Shown: positions 22,001 to 55,673 of the stretch, in pieces
Position numbering within the stretch: the stretch's first letter is position 1
Layout of the letters: each line of letters starts with the position of its first letter
Assembly: GCA_963082975.1 (NCBI GenBank)
Contig: OY720344.1
Span: 73,250,546 to 73,314,545, forward strand
Source of the DNA: Labia minor
Lineage: Eukaryota > Arthropoda > Insecta > Dermaptera > Spongiphoridae
Reading direction: 5' to 3'
Length of the DNA stretch: 64,000 nt
The notes under the pieces: generated by a model
What the model saw: the letters and a program-made list of their open reading frames with translations, nothing else
Told to the model about the DNA's origin: nothing
Databases searched by the model: none
Position numbers and translations under genes: made by a program

Positions 22001-25000
22001 TATATATATATATTTCATTTTTAAGCCATTTTCTACAACTGGATTCTAGAAATTATTTTTTAAATTAACTTGAATTATAGATAATATTCAGTTAATATAG
22101 AAAATAAAATATTTCAAATGAAAAAAATGCCCCCATCATTGCCATCATTTCTATAAGAAAAAATTTTATTTCTTTGAATCTATATTTCCTAAAAAATTTA
22201 AATTAATTGAATAAACGGTGTAGATTCGTCAAGAGTTATCCTTTTTCTATCATCTCAAAAATGTCAGAAACTATTCTGATATTGAAAATTAAAGAAAACC
22301 AACATCTCTTGATTTTTTACCATAATTGAATTTTTCTTTTTATAATGAAATAAATTAATATTTCTTGCTATTTTTTATATTTATTTATAAAAATGTTTAT
22401 AAAGGAATTTTTTTTTATTTTTTTTAAAAAGCACGAGCTGTTAATAATTGATTGTTCTAAAGATGGAAGTACCATTTAAAGACCTCTATAAGTTTGATAA
22501 ATTATCAAAGGACTTAAGAAATTATTGCACATCACAGACCATCCCATTCGGACATAGTAACTCAATGCTATTTTTTGATATTTTAAAAACATGCAGAATG
22601 CCCGCAGATTGGGCTTGTGTGTGCGTTTTTACCAACCGACGATAGTAGGGAGGTATTTTTAAATTTTTTTTCTTTTTTTTTTTGAATGAATATTGGGAAT
22701 TTAAAAATTATTTATTGAGATATAAAATAAGCAATCAAATATGCTTTTTTCAAAAATGTTAGTTTTATATCCAAATAAATAATTTTTAAATTAACAGCAA
22801 ACTCCACCATCTTTTATGTAATTTACATAAATAAAATAAACGAATAATGTTCTTGTTAATATTTAATATTTATGGATTAAAAATTTCCTCCAATGTAAAT
22901 ATTTGAAACGAGAGAAACACATACGAATTGTTCTTAGTGAGAAGGAAATTTATAAATAAATAAATAATCATTTCTATTTCCATAAAGATATTATTTATAA
23001 AGATCACAAGAAATCCATTAATCATTGATTAACCAAGAATAATTAATCAAACGCATTTTTAATCATCTAAGTTTATCAAACAAACAACTGATTTACTTAC
23101 ATTTAAGTTAATTTATAAATGAAAAAAATGTGGAATGTCTCCGCTCTGCTTTCTTGCAAATTCGAATTGGATTAATTAACACATAGAAGAGAGATTATAT
23201 TTAAATTAAATAATAAATTAAAATTAATAAAAAATATTTATTAAACCAGCGCGAGTTTGGCTCTTTGTTGATGGCACCACGTCACGTGCTGGCGCGTGAT
23301 TGTCAGTAAACGTGTTAAAATATTAATACCGGTACTTTCGATTCAACCAAGCTGAAATTCTATATATACCAGTTTTATACAATATTTAATCATGTGAAAA
23401 ACTATCGAAGATATACTGAGAGGAGTACGTGAATATATTTGATTTAATAGTGCTTATTGTGAGTTCCTATATTGGGGTGAAATTTCTATTTATTTATCAA
23501 ATAATAAATCATTTAACTTTGATATTTGATCGATAGTGTGAAGTGTTACAATGTAATTTATATTAATTATCAAACAATAAACAATAAATTTTCTAATTTT
23601 ATTGGTGTTAAGTGTTAAATAAAATTTATATTTATTTTTATCAAATAATAAATAATATAAATTCATAAGTTAAATAGTGGTAAAGTGAAAAATATAAATT
23701 AGTCAAGAAATCAAGTTATTTGGATTGGTGTCATTGATGAACAAGTTCTATTTATATAATTTAAACTATTGTGTATTATATTAATAGTAAATATTTAAAG
23801 TTATACATTTTGGTGGTATATTAGATAATAGAATATCTTTTTATATAAACAATATAAAATTATATATAAGTGTAACATTTTAATCTTAAGGATTACAAAC
23901 AAAATGTTATTATTTTGTTTATTTATTTATTGTACATTATGTATTGTACAATATAACACTTAAAATAAAATGTGTTTTTTCATATAAAATTAATTTCTAA
24001 ATATATCGACATATAAAAAATAATTCCTAATTAAATAATAAAATAATTTCAATAATAAAAAATTTACTTACATTTACTACCATGTTTGCTGGGTTTGTTA
24101 CGGATAGTATGGACACGGATGGTCTGTGGGTGTAATAGTCTGCGATTTTGTTATTCAAATAATTACAGGGAATTCGGAAGGCCTGTGGGGGGACGTACTA
24201 TGTCAGTGTTTCTCAACCTTTTTGGACCAAACGCCCCCTTTGTAAGACCTGCTTCTTAATTCGCCCCCCCCCCCCTATAGATTTTTACAGATAAAAATTT
24301 CATGATAATCCCTAATATAAGGTAGGTACACTAGGTGATACTTAGAGCCATATTGAAAAATCGAGTTTCAGAACATGATTGCAAAATCATCTGACCTTTT
24401 TTTTATTTTTATTTTTAAGAACCATATTGAAAAAAATTGAAAAAAGAGGAAATGTTTAAAAAGTCTGTTCGCAAAATCATCTTACCTTTTTTTAGAGTTG
24501 AAAATGATTTCGCCCCCCAAAAATAACTTATCGCCCCCCAAAATCGTACAATCAAATAATCGCCCCCTTTAAGATGTCCGGGTTGAGAATCACTGTACTA
24601 TGTGATCTGCGGTGCCATCTATTGGGCGCCTGAAGAGTCAACCGTTGACGCCTACAACGTCACCTTGCGGCTGCGGGCATTCCAGGATTAAAAAAAGGCT
24701 ATAGAGTTACTACCCCTCCTGTTGCACATTTCAATCGAACAAAAATTTTCTATGGTCCAATGTTTGGACCTTTTTATTCAAATTTTACATTTTATTATTA
24801 TCTGAGTTGATTATTTTTACCAATTATATTTGTAATTAATTATTTTTCAATCGATATAAATTAGAAACATTTATAAACTATATAAATATACAAAATTAAT
24901 TAAATTTTGCTATTTGGCTCGAGTGATTTATTAATTGAATGCAAAAACCCTTCTCTCCCCAATGTAAAATCGGTTTATAAAATAATTTTAAAAGATAATG

Positions 25001-26059: not shown

Positions 26060-26305
26060 ATTGTATTGTATTCTTCTAGGGAGTAATCTTTTTTTTCTGC
26101 TGTATAAAAATCGTGGTCTTCAAAGTGAAGACGACATACACGGTATTTCTTCATTTTATTATATGTCAGGCCAATAATTCATTCCGGCCCAATTGCTTGA
26201 TCCAACTTCTGCGTAAATTATCATCCCTGGGGATATAAAACATGGGTCCACATTCTCCTGCAGGAATGAATTTGTTATGCAAGCAATATGAGCAGTGGCG
26301 TACCT

Positions 26306-29300
26306 CAGTGGTTCTTAAACTGTGGTCCGCGGACCCCTGGGGGTCCGCGAAGCCTTTACTGGGGGTCCGCGGTCCTCGGAAAAAAATCATCGTAAAAATA
26401 TATACATATATAAATATTTAAAGTTCATTGTTTAACTATATCCTCCTAGAGAATTACGGCTATAATTTAATACTATTAATAATACTATTTTATTTTATTA
26501 AATTGATAATTATGTCAATTAATTTTTTGTGAATAAATAAACATATATAAAAAACTATATATAAAATTTGAATTTTCATCCATTCATTCATTTAAAATCA
26601 TTTTTCGATTGTTCCTTTAAAATAACCCCTCTTAGGGGCTCGGAAGGGGAGGCATATAAGGGAATTTTCTTTCACTTTGTTATTGGGGAAAACCAGGGGA
26701 GGGGACAGTCTTACCCGGAAAAACCCAAATTGTCAGCGTCCACTCTGGGGTTTTAAACAGTTTTAAAGCAAATGTTAATTATAAGTTCATTTCTCAACGA
26801 GTTGTATCTTTAAATTATTTTTATTAATGTTAATTATAAGTTCATTTCTCAACGAGTTGTATCTTTAAATTATTTTTATTAATTTAATTAATTATAATTA
26901 AATTATAGCTAATAATAGTTTATTATAGCTAATAATTTTTTTTAATTTTTAGTGTAATTTGCATGATCATTATTTTATAAAAACACTAAACACATTTTGC
27001 AATTTCCCAGAAAGGCTGTTTTTGAGAGTAAGTATAAGTTAGTTTTATGAATAAAAAATATTTATTTTAATAATATTTTAGAATCAAATTACGAAATTAA
27101 TAATATTTTAGAATCAAATTACGAAATTAATAATATTTTAGAATCAAATTACGAAATATATTTATTATATAAATTAATATTCATTTAAAATGATATTAAA
27201 TCATTTATTTAAAATGATTTAAAACATTTATTAAAATGATTTAAAACATTCATTTAAAATGATATTAAAACATTCATTTAAAATCATATTAAAACATAGC
27301 TAGTAAATAATAATTCGTTATATTTATATTATATTTATATTATATTTATATTATTGTAGTTCAATGTTAATAAATTACTCCATAAAATGGATCGTTGGCT
27401 ACAAACTGGTTCAACACAGAAACGGAAAGAATCAGATGATGAGGCATCAACAGCAAACTCTACCAAGAAACGCAAAACTAGAAAATATTCGGATGATTAT
27501 TTATCATTTGGATTTACTTATATTTGCAACAATGATGTGGAAAGACCAGTCTGCGTTCTATGTCAGGAAAGTTTATCCAATGAAAGTATGAAACCTGCTA
27601 ATCTCAGACGTCATTTACAAACAAAGCACAGCGAGCATGTTAGTAAGTCTATCGAATTTTTTAAAATGAAAAAAGAAGAACTTAATTCAAGTCAGAAATT
27701 GATGGTAAAGACGGGATCTGGTGGTATGAGTAAGAAAGCAGTAATGGCATCATATGAAGTAGCTCTACTTATTGCTAAAGCAGGAAAGCCGCATAATATA
27801 GCAGAGCAATTAATTCTTCCTGCTACAAAAGTAATTACAAATATAATGTTAGGAACTAAAGCAGCAAACGATATAAATTTGATTTCATTATCAAATGATA
27901 CGGTTAAGAATAGGATTGAAGACATGTCATGTAATATAAAAGAAGAATTAATATCGAGAGTGCGCAAAAGTCACTATTACTCATTACAATTGGATGAAAG
28001 TACTGATGTCACTAATAATGCCAATTTGTTAGCTTTCATTAGATATGAGTTTGAAAATCAAATACAAGAAGATGTATTGTTTTGTGATTCACTACCTTCA
28101 CGAACGACAGCTAATGACATATTTAACAGTTTGAATAATTTTATAACCGAAAATGAAATAGAGTGGCCAAAATGTGTTGGAATTTGCACTGATGGTGCTC
28201 GTGCAATGTCAGGTACAAGAACTGGATTGATTGCTCTTATTAAAAATGTTGCGCCTCAGGTTGTTTGGAATCATTGCTGCATTCACAGAGAATCATTAGC
28301 AGCCAAAAATATGTCACCAGATTTGAAAAGAACATTAGACGAAGTAGTTAAAATTGTCAATTTCATTAAGGCTCGTCCACTTAATTCCAGAGTTTTTAAA
28401 ATTTTGTGTGAGGAAATGGGTAGTCAACATACACATTTATTATTACATACAGATGTACGTTGGTTGTCCCGCGGGAAAGTACTCATTCGCCTTTTTGAGC
28501 TTCGAGATGAAATACGATTGTTTTTAATAGATGCGCATTTTGAACTGACCGAATGTTTCAATGATTTTATCTGGTTAGCTAAGGTGGCTTACTTGACTGA
28601 TATTTTTACAAAATTGAACGAACTTAATTTGAGCCTGCAAGGTACTGTTGTAAATATATTTAAAGTTGAAGATAAAATCGAAGCAATGATTAAAAAAATC
28701 GACTTGTGGTCGAAACGCATCCAGAACGATGTATATGAGTCTTTTCCAACTCTCAATGATTTCATAGAAAGCTCCAGTGAAAAATTGCTTAATCAAACGC
28801 GTCAATTATTTGTTGAACATTTAATTACTTTGAAAAGCAACTTCAGGAAGTATTTTTCTACTCCTGATCCTTGCAATAACTGGATCAGAGATCCATTTAA
28901 TATGGAAATTACAAATGCTAAACATTTATCTGCACCTGAACAAGATATTCTCGTGGAATTATCATGTGATACAACTTATAAACTAAAATTTAACAAAACT
29001 GAATTGAGCAACTTTTGGTTACTTCTCAGGTCAGATTATCCTGCGCTTGCAAATAAAGCACTTCAACACTTGATTCCATTCTGCACAACATATTTATGCG
29101 AACAAGCTTTTTCGGTACTATTTTATATTAAGTCTAAATATAGAAACAAATTAAATGTAGAGCCGGATCTTAGATTAAAAGTTTCCAATATTAAGCCAGA
29201 TATTGAGATTCTTGTTTCAAGAAAACAACTGCATACATCTCATTAAATATGTAAGTTATATTTAATGAGATAGATGCAGTTATTTTTTAAAATATTTCTT

Positions 29301-29632
29301 ATTTAATATTTTCTGAAAAAAATTATAAAATATTTATATGAATTTAATGTAAGTACCCATTATAATTTGTGAGATTTGTTGCTATGACAATGTTTGTATT
29401 TTCTTTCTTCAATATTATAATTTCTAATAAAATGTGTTCTACAATATGCAAAAAAATCGTTATTCACCAATCACTGTTAGAAATATTCATCATATATCCT
29501 TGTCCTTATGAGATCGTAAGCCAGAAATTAATTAATAAAATGACGAAAAGTACCTAAAGTTGTGATGGGGGTCCGTCAAAAAAAATTTTTTCAAGTGGGG
29601 GTCCGTGGAGTACATAAGTTTAAGAACCTATG
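26306..29632 (+). mobile_element. Inner autonomous-type hAT transposon
   Basis: The left end CAGTGGTTCTTAAAC and the right end, inverted as CATAGGTTCTTAAAC, match at 13 of 15 positions. GCGTACCT flanks at 26298-26305 and 29633-29640; this octamer lies in the left terminus of the outer element. Length is 3327 bp. Subterminal GTCCGCGG and GGGGGTCCGCG blocks recur at the far end. The 5' part carries a 55-bp tandem duplication (about 26772-26882) and three copies of a unit of about 30 bp (about 27068-27158). One intact transposase ORF lies inside. Confidence 0.92.
27387..29246 (+). CDS. hAT-family transposase, ZBED5/SCAND3-like, intact
   Basis: A single-exon ORF of 619 aa. Residues about 45-85 form a BED-type zinc finger (CVLCQESL, then HLQTKH). 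The RNase H-like core follows with LDESTDVT and ICTDGARAMSG (candidate acidic catalytic residues), the CCIHRE motif and TDVRWLSRG. The C-terminus has the hAT dimerisation region (YPALANKALQHLIPF, CEQAFSVL with the candidate Glu). Length and motif order match complete hAT transposases of the ZBED5/FAM200-like group. The enclosing terminal repeats and target duplications show it is a transposon gene, not a domesticated single-copy gene. Start: the Met opening DRWLQTG; an in-frame alternative is not obvious. The lack of stops suggests recent activity, which is inference. Confidence 0.92.
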   Translation: MDRWLQTGSTQKRKESDDEASTANSTKKRKTRKYSDDYLSFGFTYICNNDVERPVCVLCQESLSNESMKPANLRRHLQTKHSEHVSKSIEFFKMKKEELNSSQKLMVKTGSGGMSKKAVMASYEVALLIAKAGKPHNIAEQLILPATKVITNIMLGTKAANDINLISLSNDTVKNRIEDMSCNIKEELISRVRKSHYYSLQLDESTDVTNNANLLAFIRYEFENQIQEDVLFCDSLPSRTTANDIFNSLNNFITENEIEWPKCVGICTDGARAMSGTRTGLIALIKNVAPQVVWNHCCIHRESLAAKNMSPDLKRTLDEVVKIVNFIKARPLNSRVFKILCEEMGSQHTHLLLHTDVRWLSRGKVLIRLFELRDEIRLFLIDAHFELTECFNDFIWLAKVAYLTDIFTKLNELNLSLQGTVVNIFKVEDKIEAMIKKIDLWSKRIQNDVYESFPTLNDFIESSSEKLLNQTRQLFVEHLITLKSNFRKYFSTPDPCNNWIRDPFNMEITNAKHLSAPEQDILVELSCDTTYKLKFNKTELSNFWLLLRSDYPALANKALQHLIPFCTTYLCEQAFSVLFYIKSKYRNKLNVEPDLRLKVSNIKPDIEILVSRKQLHTSH

Positions 29633-30442
29633 GCGTACCTAGAACTTTTGCCGCCCGGGGCGATCTCCAGTTTGCCGCCCTTTTTATTATAAGTCGATCA
29701 AATAGTGGTTTTTATAAATTAATACACATAAATAAATTATTAAGTTATTTAATCAATATTAATTAATACACAGAGAGTAAATTTTTTCACATATTTGTAT
29801 GCACTCGTAAACATATTTATATAATATTTACTCTTCTAGCTTTCATACTAGAAAAATCGTGTATAATGCTCTCAAAATGTATATTTATATTGTTTCCGCC
29901 GGCCCTGCTTTTCAAAAGAAAAATAGATGATTTAGAAAAATATTGGTATATCACTTCAAAGTAATCATCTAATCATATAAACTTTTCAAAAGAAATGACA
30001 TTTATAAACTGATATGAAATAATTTTGGTTAGGAAAAATTGCCGAACAAAATCGTAAAGATGCGTTTACGAATTCAACGAATTTAATGAATACAATAAAA
30101 TAAAATTATTGTCCTGTTCTTGGAATTAGAATTCAAAATTTACACTAAAATGCATTTATTTACACCGAGGAATAATATTCGAAATCATATAGTTAATCAT
30201 AATTTATATAAATCAAATAATAAACTTATAATAATCAAAATAATAATCATTTATTATTCAAGAAAGAAAAAAAAATAAATATGAAATGAATAAGTTGCTT
30301 TTTACAACTATAACTAAATATAAAAAATGCCGCCCCAAGATAAGTGCCGCCCGGTGCGGACCGCACCCCCCCCCCCCCAGGTACGCCACTGAATATGAGC
30401 ACAACCAGGAATCTTCAAAAAACAAAATTTTAAACATCTTAT

Positions 30443-40880: not shown

Positions 40881-43800
40881 TTATTTATTTAATCCTAATA
40901 AGTTCCTTAACTGAAAAAAATAAGTTGCATGATATATTAGTATTATTTAGTTTTATACAACAAAATATGAGAAAAGAGAAAAAATATACCGTTATTCCTC
41001 CAACTGATATTACATCTCCAATGATATTAATTTTTTCTGCCTTAAGATCCACTCTTTTTTCAATTTCAAATCCACATTCGGTTAACTTTTTAAGAAATTT
41101 CCAGGTCTTTTCAAAATCTTGACTACTATCCTGAAGCATGTATATTTCCGTTGCTTGATAAAGTGTTATAACTAAAATTCTTTTATTATACCAACTCCAC
41201 TAAAATATATAAATGTATTTAATTTAAATATATATATTTATATTATCAATGATTAAAACTTTTAACTTTTAAAAGGTCAAGATGTCAATGGTAACTAACT
41301 TGGCTATGATATTTAATGAATATTTTAAAAATAATAATTTATATTTGAATTATTGATTGAAGAAAATTTAGAGAAATAATTTTACTTAAATATTATTATC
41401 TTTAAAGGTATATTAAAAAAATTATTACATTCACGGAATTATCTTTCATTGCTTTATAAACAATTATATCTGCTATTTCAGCTTGATTCTTCAGCCATAA
41501 TGGTACATTTTCTGGTTTAATAGTCATTGCTAAAGCATCTGACCAAATCTTGATATATGGTAACAACATTTCCAATCTATTTTGGATAGCATTGAAAGTA
41601 GATTCCTCTCTGAAAAATTAATTTAATGTTAAATTTTTAATTATAATTCTTTCAATTTTTAATGATATCAAGCAAATTATAAGTTTGAATAAGTGCAAGA
41701 AGACATTATTATCCAAGACTACGATTCCTCCATGATAAGTGATAGGGCGGGGGAGATGGAGCATACTATGCCAGAAACTGGATTGTGTTGTATTATGATA
41801 AGACCTGTAACTAATGTAATGGACGAAATGTTCTAGAGACATATACCAATAAATAAATCAAATAAATAGCGATTGGTTAAAAAGTATAATTTATTTTGGA
41901 AATTCCTATCCTAGCAGTTGATTTCTTCGTTTTGAAAATTCAACTTTGTTTACATAATTAATTATTAAATAAAGATGAAGGTATTTATACTTAAGAAAAA
42001 TTAAATAATTAAAAGAAAAATGTGAAAAAATTATTTTAGTTTTTAAAAAAATGTAAATGAATTCTCCTACTACCTTTTAAAAAGAGAATTATTAATAAGA
42101 TTAATACATTTATAAAACTTAATTAAATATTTAATTTTAAATATTCATTGATATTTTATTAAAAGATAATTATTTATACACATCTAATTAAAAACAAAAA
42201 ACTAATATTTGGCAATTTTGTCAGCTAGAGAATCCATTCAATAATTAAAATTAATTTAATTTTATAATTAAAAAAAATCAGAATTTATTTTTAATAATTA
42301 AAAATGATTTAATTTTGGAATAAATTCATAATATATATTAAACGTTATATAAAATGTGAAAGTCCTTATAGCTCTATTTAATCAATATTCAAACTTTTAT
42401 TAATAGGAATAATAACATTCCGATATCCGTTGAAATCTTGATTATAATATATATATATAATTTATAAAGACAATTTTTTTAATGAAAGATATATTTATAT
42501 CTTCTCAATCTTGTATTATTGTAATTGTATCTTTTGTATCAAGTGATTTCTTAACTCTCCTAAGAAAAAACTATTCACTATTACGTTAGATTGAATAACT
42601 AATTAAAAAGATTTGTAAGAATTTTAAGATATACATATATATTTTGTAAAACGATTTTTTTATATACCCATTTGTAATGACAAAACAAAAAATCGTTTCT
42701 TGACTTTGTACCAATTTTGGATCAAGGCTCAGACATGCTTCGTGAGAAACCTTTGCCCAAAGTCTTGTTTCAAATAAAAATGAAATACAAATTAAATTAT
42801 AAATATGCAATTATGAATAAATTTCTTTTTTTAGAATAGTAAAATAATAGGAATATAGCAAAATCTATCAAAATAAAATTGTTCATCGATTGTTTTTAAA
42901 TTTTAACAGAATTGAATTTTGATTCTGTCTGTTTCTATTATTATAATGTTAAGTTTTTAAATTTAATCATTGAGAGAAAGAGAGAGAGACAAATCTTGGT
43001 TATCAGATTTTCGTGAACTCTAGGTTCTAGTGCATAGGTTCCCAAACTTTTTTGGGTCGTAGACACCTTGTCATGTTTTTCGATTTTGGATAGATCCCCT
43101 AAATTGATTTTTTGTAAAAAAAATTACTTTTTTTTTAAAGAGCCTTATTGAAAAATCAAAAATGTTTTAAGAGCCATGTCAGAAAAACAATTTACCTTTT
43201 TTTTTAGAGCCATATTGAATTGTAGGTATAATGTAAGTAAATAGGCTTGAGATCCACTATCGAGACCCCAATTTTAATTTCATAGGCCCCCAAATTTTTT
43301 ATCCGCTGCCATAGTCGTATAGAGGTCGATATAGACCACTTTGTGAACCTCTGTTCTATTGGGATAAAATTAAACCTGAATAATTTAACTTTAATATTAT
43401 TGTTTCAATATAATTAATTTAAATAATTTGATTCATAAATTTTCAAATTTATTTGTATATATAAAACTTCTTGAAATCTAATTTAAGAAACACAAAAAAA
43501 TATAACTCTCTTGGTTAATATTAAATAAATCTCATTAAATACACAGAATAAAAATTAATAAAAAAAAATATATATTTAATAAAATACTTTTTTTTATATT
43601 ACATTTAGAAAATCATTTTGCTTGCAATATTTTTAAATTTTAATGACATTTGTAATTTTATCTTTCTGACGAATTAAATATATTGTTTTAATTTATTTGA
43701 TGATGAAATGTATATTATTTTTCATTCAAATTGATAATATTCTACTTAAGAAAAATTACAAGATTTAATTTAAAGAAATGTCATCTTAATTTGCACAATG

Positions 43801-51100: not shown

Positions 51101-53224
51101 AGTTTTTAACTTTTTTTAAACACTTTTTCTAAACTTTTTTAGACGTCAAATGAAAAGATCTAAATCAATGCTTCAAATGATTCTGTTTGGAGACGAAACA
51201 AGTGCAGAAGATGCACGAGCAAAAAATATTCGACAAACAGGTAAATATTAAAATTAAGTAATTATTTGATATTAATATGAAAATTAATTAAATGTGTATT
51301 CATTATTACAATATTATTTTATTATTTTCAATTTTTTATTATATAAATATTGTTCTTATTGTTTTATTTATTTTATTTTTTAATTTTAGAATTATTAGTT
51401 GATCTTCGAGAAGCAATTCTTCAAGTAGCTCGCCACTTCTTGAGTGTTGAACCTGGTTTAGCAAAAAATATAGGACTTATCGCCGATTATTCCATGGAAA
51501 GTCATTCGCGAGATCATGAAAATTATGTCAGCGTCAGTAGAACTCGTCGTCGTAGAGCTAAAGCTGTTTTAGGTAAATAATAGAAAACGAAAGAAAAATA
51601 AATATTTTTGCTTACCTTAAATCCGCTTTATTCTTTTTTAAGATTTTGAACGACATGATGATGATGAACTTGGGTTCCGTAAAAATGATGTTATTGATAT
51701 AATTAGTCAAAAAGATGAACATTGCTGGGTTGGTGAATTAAATGGATTAAGAGGTAAATGGAATTTGAAAATATTAAATAAAAAATCATAATTAGTCATT
51801 TAGTTTGAATCGATCTTGAATTTAACTTGAATAAAAATATAGATACTATATAACACTTGGTGATACCTAGAGCCATATTGAAAAATTGACAATGTTTAAG
51901 AGCCAAATCGGAAAAAATTTTACTTTTTTTTTTTGGGCATGACTTTAAATTTTTTAATTGAGCCATAATAAACTCAAAAAGACCCACGGTTTGGCCACCA
52001 TGGCTATATAATATTATATTTTGAAATAACTAAAGTTTATTCAAAGTTTCTAATTAAAATAAATATAAATTGGTTATTTTAGGATGGTTTCCTGCAAAAT
52101 TTGTAGAATTACTTGATGAACGAAGTAAACTGTATTCGTGTGCGGGTGATGATGCAGTGACAGAAACTGTTACTGATCTAGTACGAGGTACTCTTTGTCC
52201 AGCAATTAAACAAATTCTTGAACATGGTATGCGCCGACCTAGTTTCCTAGGTAAGCTGTTGTTTAATAATAATTTATTTTAAAAAAATAACGATCTATTT
52301 AATATAAATTGAATTCTTTAAGGTGCACCATGTCATCCTTGGCAATTTATTGAAGAAGCAGCCTGTAAAGAAGTTGAACGAGATTTTAATTCTGTCTATT
52401 CCCGTTTAGTTCTTTGTAAAACTTATCGATTGGATGAAGATGGTAAAGTTCTGACACCCGAAGAGGTATCTATTATACTATTTCAGTCTAATTTAATTTT
52501 TCTTTTTTAATTTAATATTAAGTAAATTATTTTTTTAGTTGCTTTATCGATGTGTTCAAGCTGTTAATGCCTCACATGATACTGCTCATGCACAAATGGA
52601 TGTGAAATTACGAAGTTTAGTTTGTCTTGGACTTAATGAACAAGTTTTACATCTTTGGCTGGAAGTTCTTTGTTCTTGTTTAGAAGTTGTTAGGAAATGG
52701 TAAGAAATTTAATTACATTTCAAAAACATTCCAAGCCTCTTGATTAAAACAATGTAATTATATTTTTTAATAATTTTCAATTTGAATCTCTTTGCAAACA
52801 AAATATTTAATCATAAAACTATTCAGAGATTAAAATTTCAATTTATTATAAATTAAAACAATCATATCATTTCTTGCTTACAATAAATTAAAGTGTGTAA
52901 GCCACATATTTAAAAACTTTAGAGAATTATAAAATAAAAATATTTATTTATCTGTTTACTTATTATTAAAGAATATAATTTAATTTAATGTTTTATTAAC
53001 ACTTATATTTTCATCATAAATTATTTTTTAGGTATCAGCCTTGGAGTTATTTATATAGTCCTGGATGGGTCCAAATAAAATGCGAATTAAGGATCTTGTC
53101 GCAGTTTTCTTTTAATTTAAATCCTGATTGGGAGTTGCCTCCACGTCGGGAACAATCCCAACCTTTAAAAGATGGTGTTCGAGATATGCTTGTAAAACAT
53201 CATCTTTTTTCATGGGATCTTTAA
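48164..53224 (+). CDS. SGSM3: Small G protein signalling modulator 3 (RUN-TBC protein)
   Basis: Sixteen exons join in phase to 804 aa: 48164-48229, 48409-48620, 48862-48960, 49018-49181, 49589-49799, 49867-49997, 50075-50308, 50383-50477, 50934-51079, 51143-51240, 51390-51572, 51643-51753, 52083-52250, 52323-52465, 52539-52699 and 53032-53224. The TBC domain (about residues 165-370) starts at [16 protein letters not shown]. It has both catalytic fingers: IEKDLLR (Arg) and YCQGTG (Gln). An SH3 domain spans about 546-600 ([34 protein letters not shown]). A RUN domain follows to the C-terminus ([17 protein letters not shown], then [12 protein letters not shown]). Domain order and length match SGSM3/RUTBC3, a Rab-directed GAP-type modulator acting on membranes. 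The N-terminal 50 residues are an extension relative to the human protein. Intron 12 holds a hAT MITE fragment. Confidence 0.95.
51853..52002. mobile_element. hAT MITE fragment in an SGSM3 intron
   Basis: It shares AGAGCCATATTGAAAAAT and the preceding GGTGATACCTAG-type words with 24204-24595. The right end, inverted as CATGGTGGCCAAACC, is hAT-like. A target duplication (CTATATA-type flanks) is only approximate. Confidence 0.5.
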
Positions 53225-54540: not shown

Positions 54541-55360
54541 CCCTAGAACAGAGGTTCTTAAACTGTGGTCCGCGGACCCCTGGGGGTCCGCGAAGACTTT
54601 ACTGAGGGTCCGCAAAGCCATCGTACAGGTGCATGAGAAAATGACGGAAATATGAAGGGATTAGATCAGAGGTTCTTAAACTGTGGTCCGCGAAGACTTT
54701 ACTGGGGGTCCGCAAAGCCATCGTACAGGTGCACGAGAAAATGACGGAAATATGAAGGGTTTAGATGGTTAACTTAAAATAGGAAGGGTTGGAGGAATGT
54801 GGTTGCTGCAACCAAGAACTTTCGAATTTAGTAACGTCAGAATGATAGAAAAAGAAAAATGTAGAGTTTTAGTAATTATACAAATTTATTTATTTAGAAT
54901 TCTTTAAATCAGAGTTTCTTAAACTGTGGTCCGCGGACCCCTGGGGGTTCGCGAAGCCATCGTACAGGTGCAAGAGAAAATGATGAGTCAGTTAAAACTT
55001 TATTTAATATAAAAGGAGCGATGGCATGGCTTTGTGAGGAAACAGAGATCAAATACCCAAATTCAACGAAATGTGCAAGAAAACTATTGCTACCGTTTCC
55101 ATCTTCATATTTAGCTGAATTTTCTTTCTTCAATATTATAATTTCTAATAAAATGTGTTCTACAATATGCAAAAAAATCGTTATTCACCAATCACTGTTA
55201 GAAATATTCAACATATATCCTTGTTCTTATGAGATCGTAAGCCAGAAATTAACTAATAAAATGATGTAAAGTACCTAAAGTTGGGATGGGGTCCGTCAAA
55301 AAAAATTTCTCCAAGTGGGGGTCCGCGGAGTACATAAGTTTAAGAACCTCTGCCCTAGAA
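54541..55360. mobile_element. Non-autonomous derivative of the inner hAT family, with three left ends
   Basis: The element is 54549-55352 with CCCTAGAA on both sides (54541-54548, 55353-55360). The left end CAGAGGTTCTTAAAC and the right end, inverted as CAGAGGTTCTTAAAC, are perfect inverses. Two further left-terminus copies lie inside (about 54667 and 54911). About 55122-55350 is nearly identical to 29395-29632 of the autonomous element, including CAATATTATAATTTCTAATA. The transposase is deleted. The region 54780-54840 inside it resembles 61655-61690. Confidence 0.88.
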
Positions 55361-55673
55361 CAGTGCTCCGCAACTGTTGTGCCTTAAAAGTGATACAGAT
55401 GTGACGCCGCGAACAAAGGGCACTTTTAGAAATCCGCATAATTTTATATGTAAGTTTATTGTCATTTCTATAAGTGTCATTTTTCTGAGGTTAATAATAC
55501 AAGCGCTTGTGTCACCTTTATATACGCGCCCTCGCGCAAACAAACTTAGTCAATTAATTTCTACCTACAAATCTACATATATATATATATATATTTCAAC
55601 TTTTGATATGCCGCAAAATTCTAGAAACAATTTTTGTGTGTCGTAGAAAAGGTAGCGGAGCACTGCCATAGAA
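55353..55673. mobile_element. hAT MITE sharing its target duplication with the neighbour
   Basis: The element is 55361-55665. The left end CAGTGCTCCGCAAC and the right end, inverted as CAGTGCTCCGCTAC, match at 13 of 14 positions. Flanks CCCTAGAA (55353-55360) and CCATAGAA (55666-55673) agree at 7 of 8. The left flank is also the right flank of the preceding element, so that element inserted into this one's target duplication. Confidence 0.85.

Follow-up and report, generated by a model that had tools for sequence, protein, structure and literature searches.

A Buster-like hAT transposon nested in the terminus of an earlier hAT-like MITE, in a genome with thousands of related insertions

The window, that is, the whole 64-kb stretch of DNA analysed here, has a GC content of 25.5%. 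Its host looks like an insect, given a pupal cuticle protein domain (E 4.5e-8) in the window as well as a glomulin-like gene, the larger part of which matches at E 2.8e-15. It was found that an inner element of 3327 bp (26306..29632, + strand) is nested inside an outer element (26293..30391). The outer element starts with 13 bp (CAGTGGCGTACCT, 26293..26305, + strand) that pair with its right terminal inverted repeat (AGGTACGCCACTG, 30379..30391, − strand); all 13 bases agree, whereas the 14th base is A at the left end, with the insert skipped, and G at the right end. An exact target duplication, AATATGAG, stands on both sides (26285..26292 and 30392..30399). The inner element has an exact 8-bp duplication of its own, GCGTACCT. 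Its left copy (26298..26305) fits nnnTAnnn and is a part of the outer left terminus, 5 bp inside the end, where CAGTG precedes it, and its right copy (29633..29640) is followed by the remaining 751 bp of the outer element (29641..30391, + strand). Once the insert and one duplication are subtracted, 764 bp of outer element remain. The inner ends are not perfect, since positions 3 and 4 differ (14 of 16 bases agree). A blastn comparison of the inner element with the 751-bp right part of the outer one (E 1e-3) gave no similarity; the two are different types of element. Because the inner target lies in the outer terminus, the outer element inserted before the inner one, and the nesting is the result of two successive insertions. 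The initial annotation had described this arrangement, including both perfect duplications, the order of events and the two element types, and its coordinates proved exact to the base.

The inner element looks like a Buster-type hAT, judged from its sequence features. It has the 8-bp duplication (GCGTACCT twice) and the short inverted ends of the hAT superfamily, and nnnTAnnn is given as the Buster target consensus in PMC3517528 and PMC3499496. A 619-aa open frame (27387..29246, + strand) probably encodes a hAT transposase. Its Pfam match to Dimer_Tnp_hAT (PF05699, E 0.00084) scores 19.5 bits, below the cut-off of 21.4, and the matches to BED-like fingers (E 0.003, and E 0.0074 for zf-BED) are also under the curated cut-offs. 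The frame includes LDESTD, CTDGA and CEQAFS stretches, which I take to resemble hAT catalytic regions. A sequence search of the PDB gave no matches at up to E 1 or E 10. Relatives of the protein were confirmed neither among viral contigs (1 pattern match) nor among genome contigs (18 pattern matches; records close to the genome of the window may be absent from that set). Two NCBIfam matches, far under the cut-off, were rejected. The element shares with the Buster family (TcBuster, Mar, and ZBED5-like) the nnnTAnnn duplication, the short inverted ends, and weak BED-finger and hAT C-terminal matches; it differs in that its Pfam matches stay under the curated cut-offs and the PDB, searched up to E 10, holds no match to it. 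The targets of its family in this genome lean to TCTAGA. In its 5′ non-coding region, the inner element has exact tandem repeats of two 55-bp units (26771-26880) and three 30-bp units (27067-27157), and a 29-bp inverted repeat (90%, 7-bp loop, 29222-29286) spans the end of the open frame.

The outer element looks like a non-autonomous Pegasus-like hAT MITE, which may be mobilised by a hAT transposase. No listed frame of at least 80 aa was found in the 751-bp remainder. The element has a Pegasus-like terminus resembling CAGTGGCGTACCTA together with an 8-bp duplication, and matching 8-bp flanks were also seen around three other copies (loci L002, L004 and L005). In a table of PMC2997013, the 14-letter terminus of BmMITE-15, a Pegasus-like hAT MITE of the silkworm, is printed as CAGTGGCGTACCTA. 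This is the outer left end as read across the insert (13 letters plus the A at 29641), and an 8-bp duplication of any sequence is also shared according to the same table. In contrast, the outer right end carries G at the 14th base, and what is presumably the length column of that table gives 300 for BmMITE-15 versus 764 bp for the outer element; the comparison covers the ends alone. The outer target AATATGAG departs from nnnTAnnn, whereas the targets of the other five accepted hAT-like elements of the window fit it.

These elements come from a scan for hAT-like pairs, which gave 14 pairs in the window, of which six were accepted. As a chance control, the same scan was performed on six second-order Markov windows. 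They yielded 18 pairs in all, 17 with 11/14 terminal bases and one with 12/14 terminal and 7/8 duplication bases; no pair in the six reached the grade of the outer (13/14, 8/8) or inner (12/14, 8/8) element. The eight remaining window pairs were set aside, all of them having 11/14 terminal bases like the 17 Markov pairs (2.8 per window), although their number exceeds chance and some may be real. An accepted hAT-like MITE of 392 bp (24204-24595) has a perfect duplication, TACTATGT, and 14/16 matching terminal bases. Another, of 321 bp (43033-43353, flanks TTCTAGTG/TTCTATTG), was accepted though one Markov window yielded a pair of equal grade; its interior resembles that of 24204-24595 and a fragment near 51853-51933. 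The targets of the four accepted elements other than the nested pair are TA-centred, which is consistent with a shared target taste.

A second copy with inner-family ends lies at 54549..55352 (+ strand, 804 bp), flanked by the duplication CCCTAGAA (54541-54548 and 55353-55360), which like GCGTACCT fits nnnTAnnn. Its terminal bases match at 16/16 positions, and it shares 95% identity with the inner element over its first 65 and last 238 bp, but its middle is different (tblastn against the inner protein, E 2.4). In that middle (54983-55128), one frame reads LLLPFPSSYLAE, which resembles the C-terminal part of a further hAT transposase. Inside the copy (within 54549-54983), two additional left ends of the inner family occur at 54667 and 54910, preceded by the nnnTAnnn 8-mers GATTAGAT and CTTTAAAT; they are either relics of self-insertion or tandem duplications. 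The second copy directly adjoins element X, a 305-bp hAT-like MITE (55361..55665, + strand) with flanks CCCTAGAA/CCATAGAA, in which 13/16 terminal and 7/8 duplication bases match. Thus, both inner-family copies of the window touch a hAT-like end.

Are the two families common in the genome? The assembly (604 Mb in 71 contigs) was searched for exact ends. Perfect inner-family ends preceded by a TA target, to which the count is confined, occur 5406 times (2683 + 2723), against 2 (0 + 2) in a backward control, and the exact 13-base outer terminus occurs 3479 times (1772 + 1707), against 0. A first look at the outer family gave 1996 candidates genome-wide, and all 40 that were scored have 94-100% identity. 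Among the first 100 listed inner-family ends, read by hand, 13 pairs are 3316 apart, which is the spacing of the inner element of the window, and others are about 450 apart. Since both spacings recur in the list, the 3.3-kb form and the short form are both common. Both families are large, and both are proposed to be recently active. Neither was found in a 200-kb sample at 20.0-20.2 Mb of C1 (L011-L030), which was left out of the counts; this sample has a GC content of 20.6% and 1020 CTAG versus 36 GTAC, and is possibly a satellite array.

The targets of the same 100 listed ends have G at position 6 in 38% (background 9.4%), C at position 6 in 12% (background 9.3%) and A at position 7 in 56% (background 42%). 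Thus, the inner family favours CTAG-like cores and is about neutral to GTAC; earlier window counts had pooled the two. An explanation by a GTAC core was dropped, G being favoured over C after TA. The preference given for Hermes of the Ac family in PMC10368747 is nTnnnnAn. The nested site has C at positions 2 and 7, yet A stands at position 7 in 56 of the 100 listed ends; the TA centre is a stronger target feature of the inner family than this A. For TcBuster in human cells, PMC3499496 gives TA at 26,871 of 27,985 sites.

It was then assessed whether the compound recurs. The exact junction, in which an inner-family end comes after GCGTACCT, exists at two places genome-wide, in the window and at C2:14980461 (L010). 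In the latter, a 464-bp inner-family element, whose middle resembles that of the second inner-family copy of the window, lies between two GCGTACCT in another outer copy, which has its own duplication CGACCCAG on either side. This outer copy is 91.5% identical to that of the window, to which seven other outer copies stand closer (95.9-96.8% identity); thus, neither compound is a sister copy of the other. Had the nested pair been found at several loci with one shared flank, it would have been, according to the initial annotation, a single composite unit. The search, which covered exact junctions, revealed no such recurrence. The perfect outer duplication does surround everything, as expected for a 4.1-kb element moving as a whole. 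However, the inner element carries its own perfect duplication, the junction occurs at two places only, the C2 compound differs in its inner element and its flanks and has an outer copy that is more distant, and the exact-junction search found no loci that combine this inner with this outer copy inside different outer duplications. Since the other junction differs in inner element, outer copy and flanks, the compound is, as far as exact junctions show, not one mobile unit, and I give this possibility hardly any credence. It could also be imagined that both cases go back to one event, the inner element having later been exchanged through gene conversion for a different family member, which then reached a second locus. 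The outer end, the orientation and the 8 bp are identical in the two cases, but the window outer copy is closer to seven others than to the C2 copy, so this is a very improbable account. Most likely, the same 8-bp site was struck twice independently, judged by the divergence of the two copies.

The initial annotation had suggested that the insertion may reflect a preference for hAT ends and proposed plotting inner-family copies against hAT termini; this was carried out in part, as a count of exact ends. With the TA sites put at about 73.5 million, the 5406 inner-family ends and 3479 outer termini lead one to expect 0.13 nested junctions if any TA site serves, or 0.27 if sites are weighted by the target composition of the family; two were seen. 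These expectations rest on the TA density of the window and on 100 ends, all within the first 12 Mb of a single contig, and the junction count covers exact, undecayed ends at one of the two possible junctions, the opposite one being AGGTACGC before an inner end. The observed number is 7.5 to 16 times the expected one, with intervals of 0.9-27 (weighted) and 1.9-56 (TA only). The chance of at least two junctions is 0.0075 (TA only) or 0.030 (weighted). As the window junction was known beforehand, the excess is partly after-the-fact, and the chance of at least one junction beyond the given case is 0.12 or 0.24, respectively. Thus, outer ends can be dismissed as a major target of the inner family, and the suggested preference is at most weak for these ends (2/5406). 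For hAT-like ends lying beside the target, a several-fold excess was found. CAGNG, a hAT-like end sign of five letters, stands directly past the 8-bp target at 29 of the 5406 inner-family ends, whereas 6.3 (from the window frequency of CAGNG) or 8.7 (from window CAGNG after NNNTANNN) are expected, giving an excess of 3.3 to 4.6-fold; the element behind the sign was examined in one of the 29, namely X. The 29 abutting targets are mostly TCTAGA-like (T at position 2 in 23, C at 3 in 23, G at 6 in 20, and A at 7 in 23), more so than the 100 listed targets at large. As listed, 8 of the 29 cases are forward and 21 reverse. This abutting pattern is stronger than the excess of nested junctions and is the more interesting lead.

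These results can be read in two ways. The inner transposase may be drawn to other hAT ends beyond what the target letters explain, either by its DNA-binding domain contacting terminus-like DNA or by a bound foreign transposase opening the site. Two independent hits within one 8-bp stretch of the outer terminus, the excess of CAGNG-abutting ends, and the contact of both window copies with a hAT-like end speak for such an attraction. On the other hand, 2 out of 5406 is a very small share and the question itself arose from one of these cases, CAGNG comprises five letters only, and the abutting targets are TCTAGA-like beyond the targets at large, as the reuse of duplications predicts. The relative TcBuster, moreover, showed an affinity for Ac-hobo repeats no greater than that of two unrelated transposons (PMC3499496). 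I therefore consider an attraction of the transposase unlikely, and equally doubtful is the wider idea that a Buster-type hAT leans several-fold to hAT ends beyond its TCTAGA taste, with hAT families piling onto and inactivating each other as a result. Among the literature matches listed, titles and abstract openings showed none on a hAT preference for hAT ends. It is considerably more probable, and is regarded here with good confidence, that two abundant families made successive, independent cut-and-paste insertions with ordinary target choice. That both nested hits struck the same outer end (the one continuing AGAACTTTTG) in the same orientation counts against this preferred reading, as do the surplus of nested junctions and that of CAGNG-abutting ends over their expected numbers.

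According to the reading of two ordinary insertions, a 764-bp non-autonomous hAT-like MITE with Pegasus/BmMITE-15-like ends first entered AATATGAG, and a 3.3-kb Buster-type hAT later entered GCGTACCT in its left terminus. The nested site is a permissible TA-centred target and about average in quality; the weights relative to an average TA site are 2.1 for GCGTACCT and 87 for CCCTAGAA. Since the MITE is present in thousands of copies, so is the site, and with thousands of insertions an occasional hit on a terminus would be rare without being remarkable. The insert separates the outer 13 bp of the MITE by 3.3 kb from the remainder; thus, the outer left end is probably disabled. As for stacking, both kinds of element may like TCTAGA-like targets, and a first insertion duplicates one. 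If the taste is shared, each insertion would leave two favoured sites beside a hAT end, on which the next element could land. Because the abutting targets are mostly TCTAGA-like, reuse of favoured duplications is likely, and the excess beside hAT-like ends likely stems from the shared taste together with this reuse.

The locus thus offers a clean, dated case of nested transposons in a genome that, with its thousands of insertions, is a natural experiment, one in which terminus hits on other hATs are rare and stacking on shared duplications may be several times above expectation. Like a bacterial transposon-end-targeting element, the inner element inserted into the terminal repeat of another transposon, but the bacterial element aims at such ends, whereas the inner family did so at only 2 of 5406 ends. 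Should the excess beside hAT-like ends survive target-letter matching, bacterial elements of this kind would have a eukaryotic counterpart.
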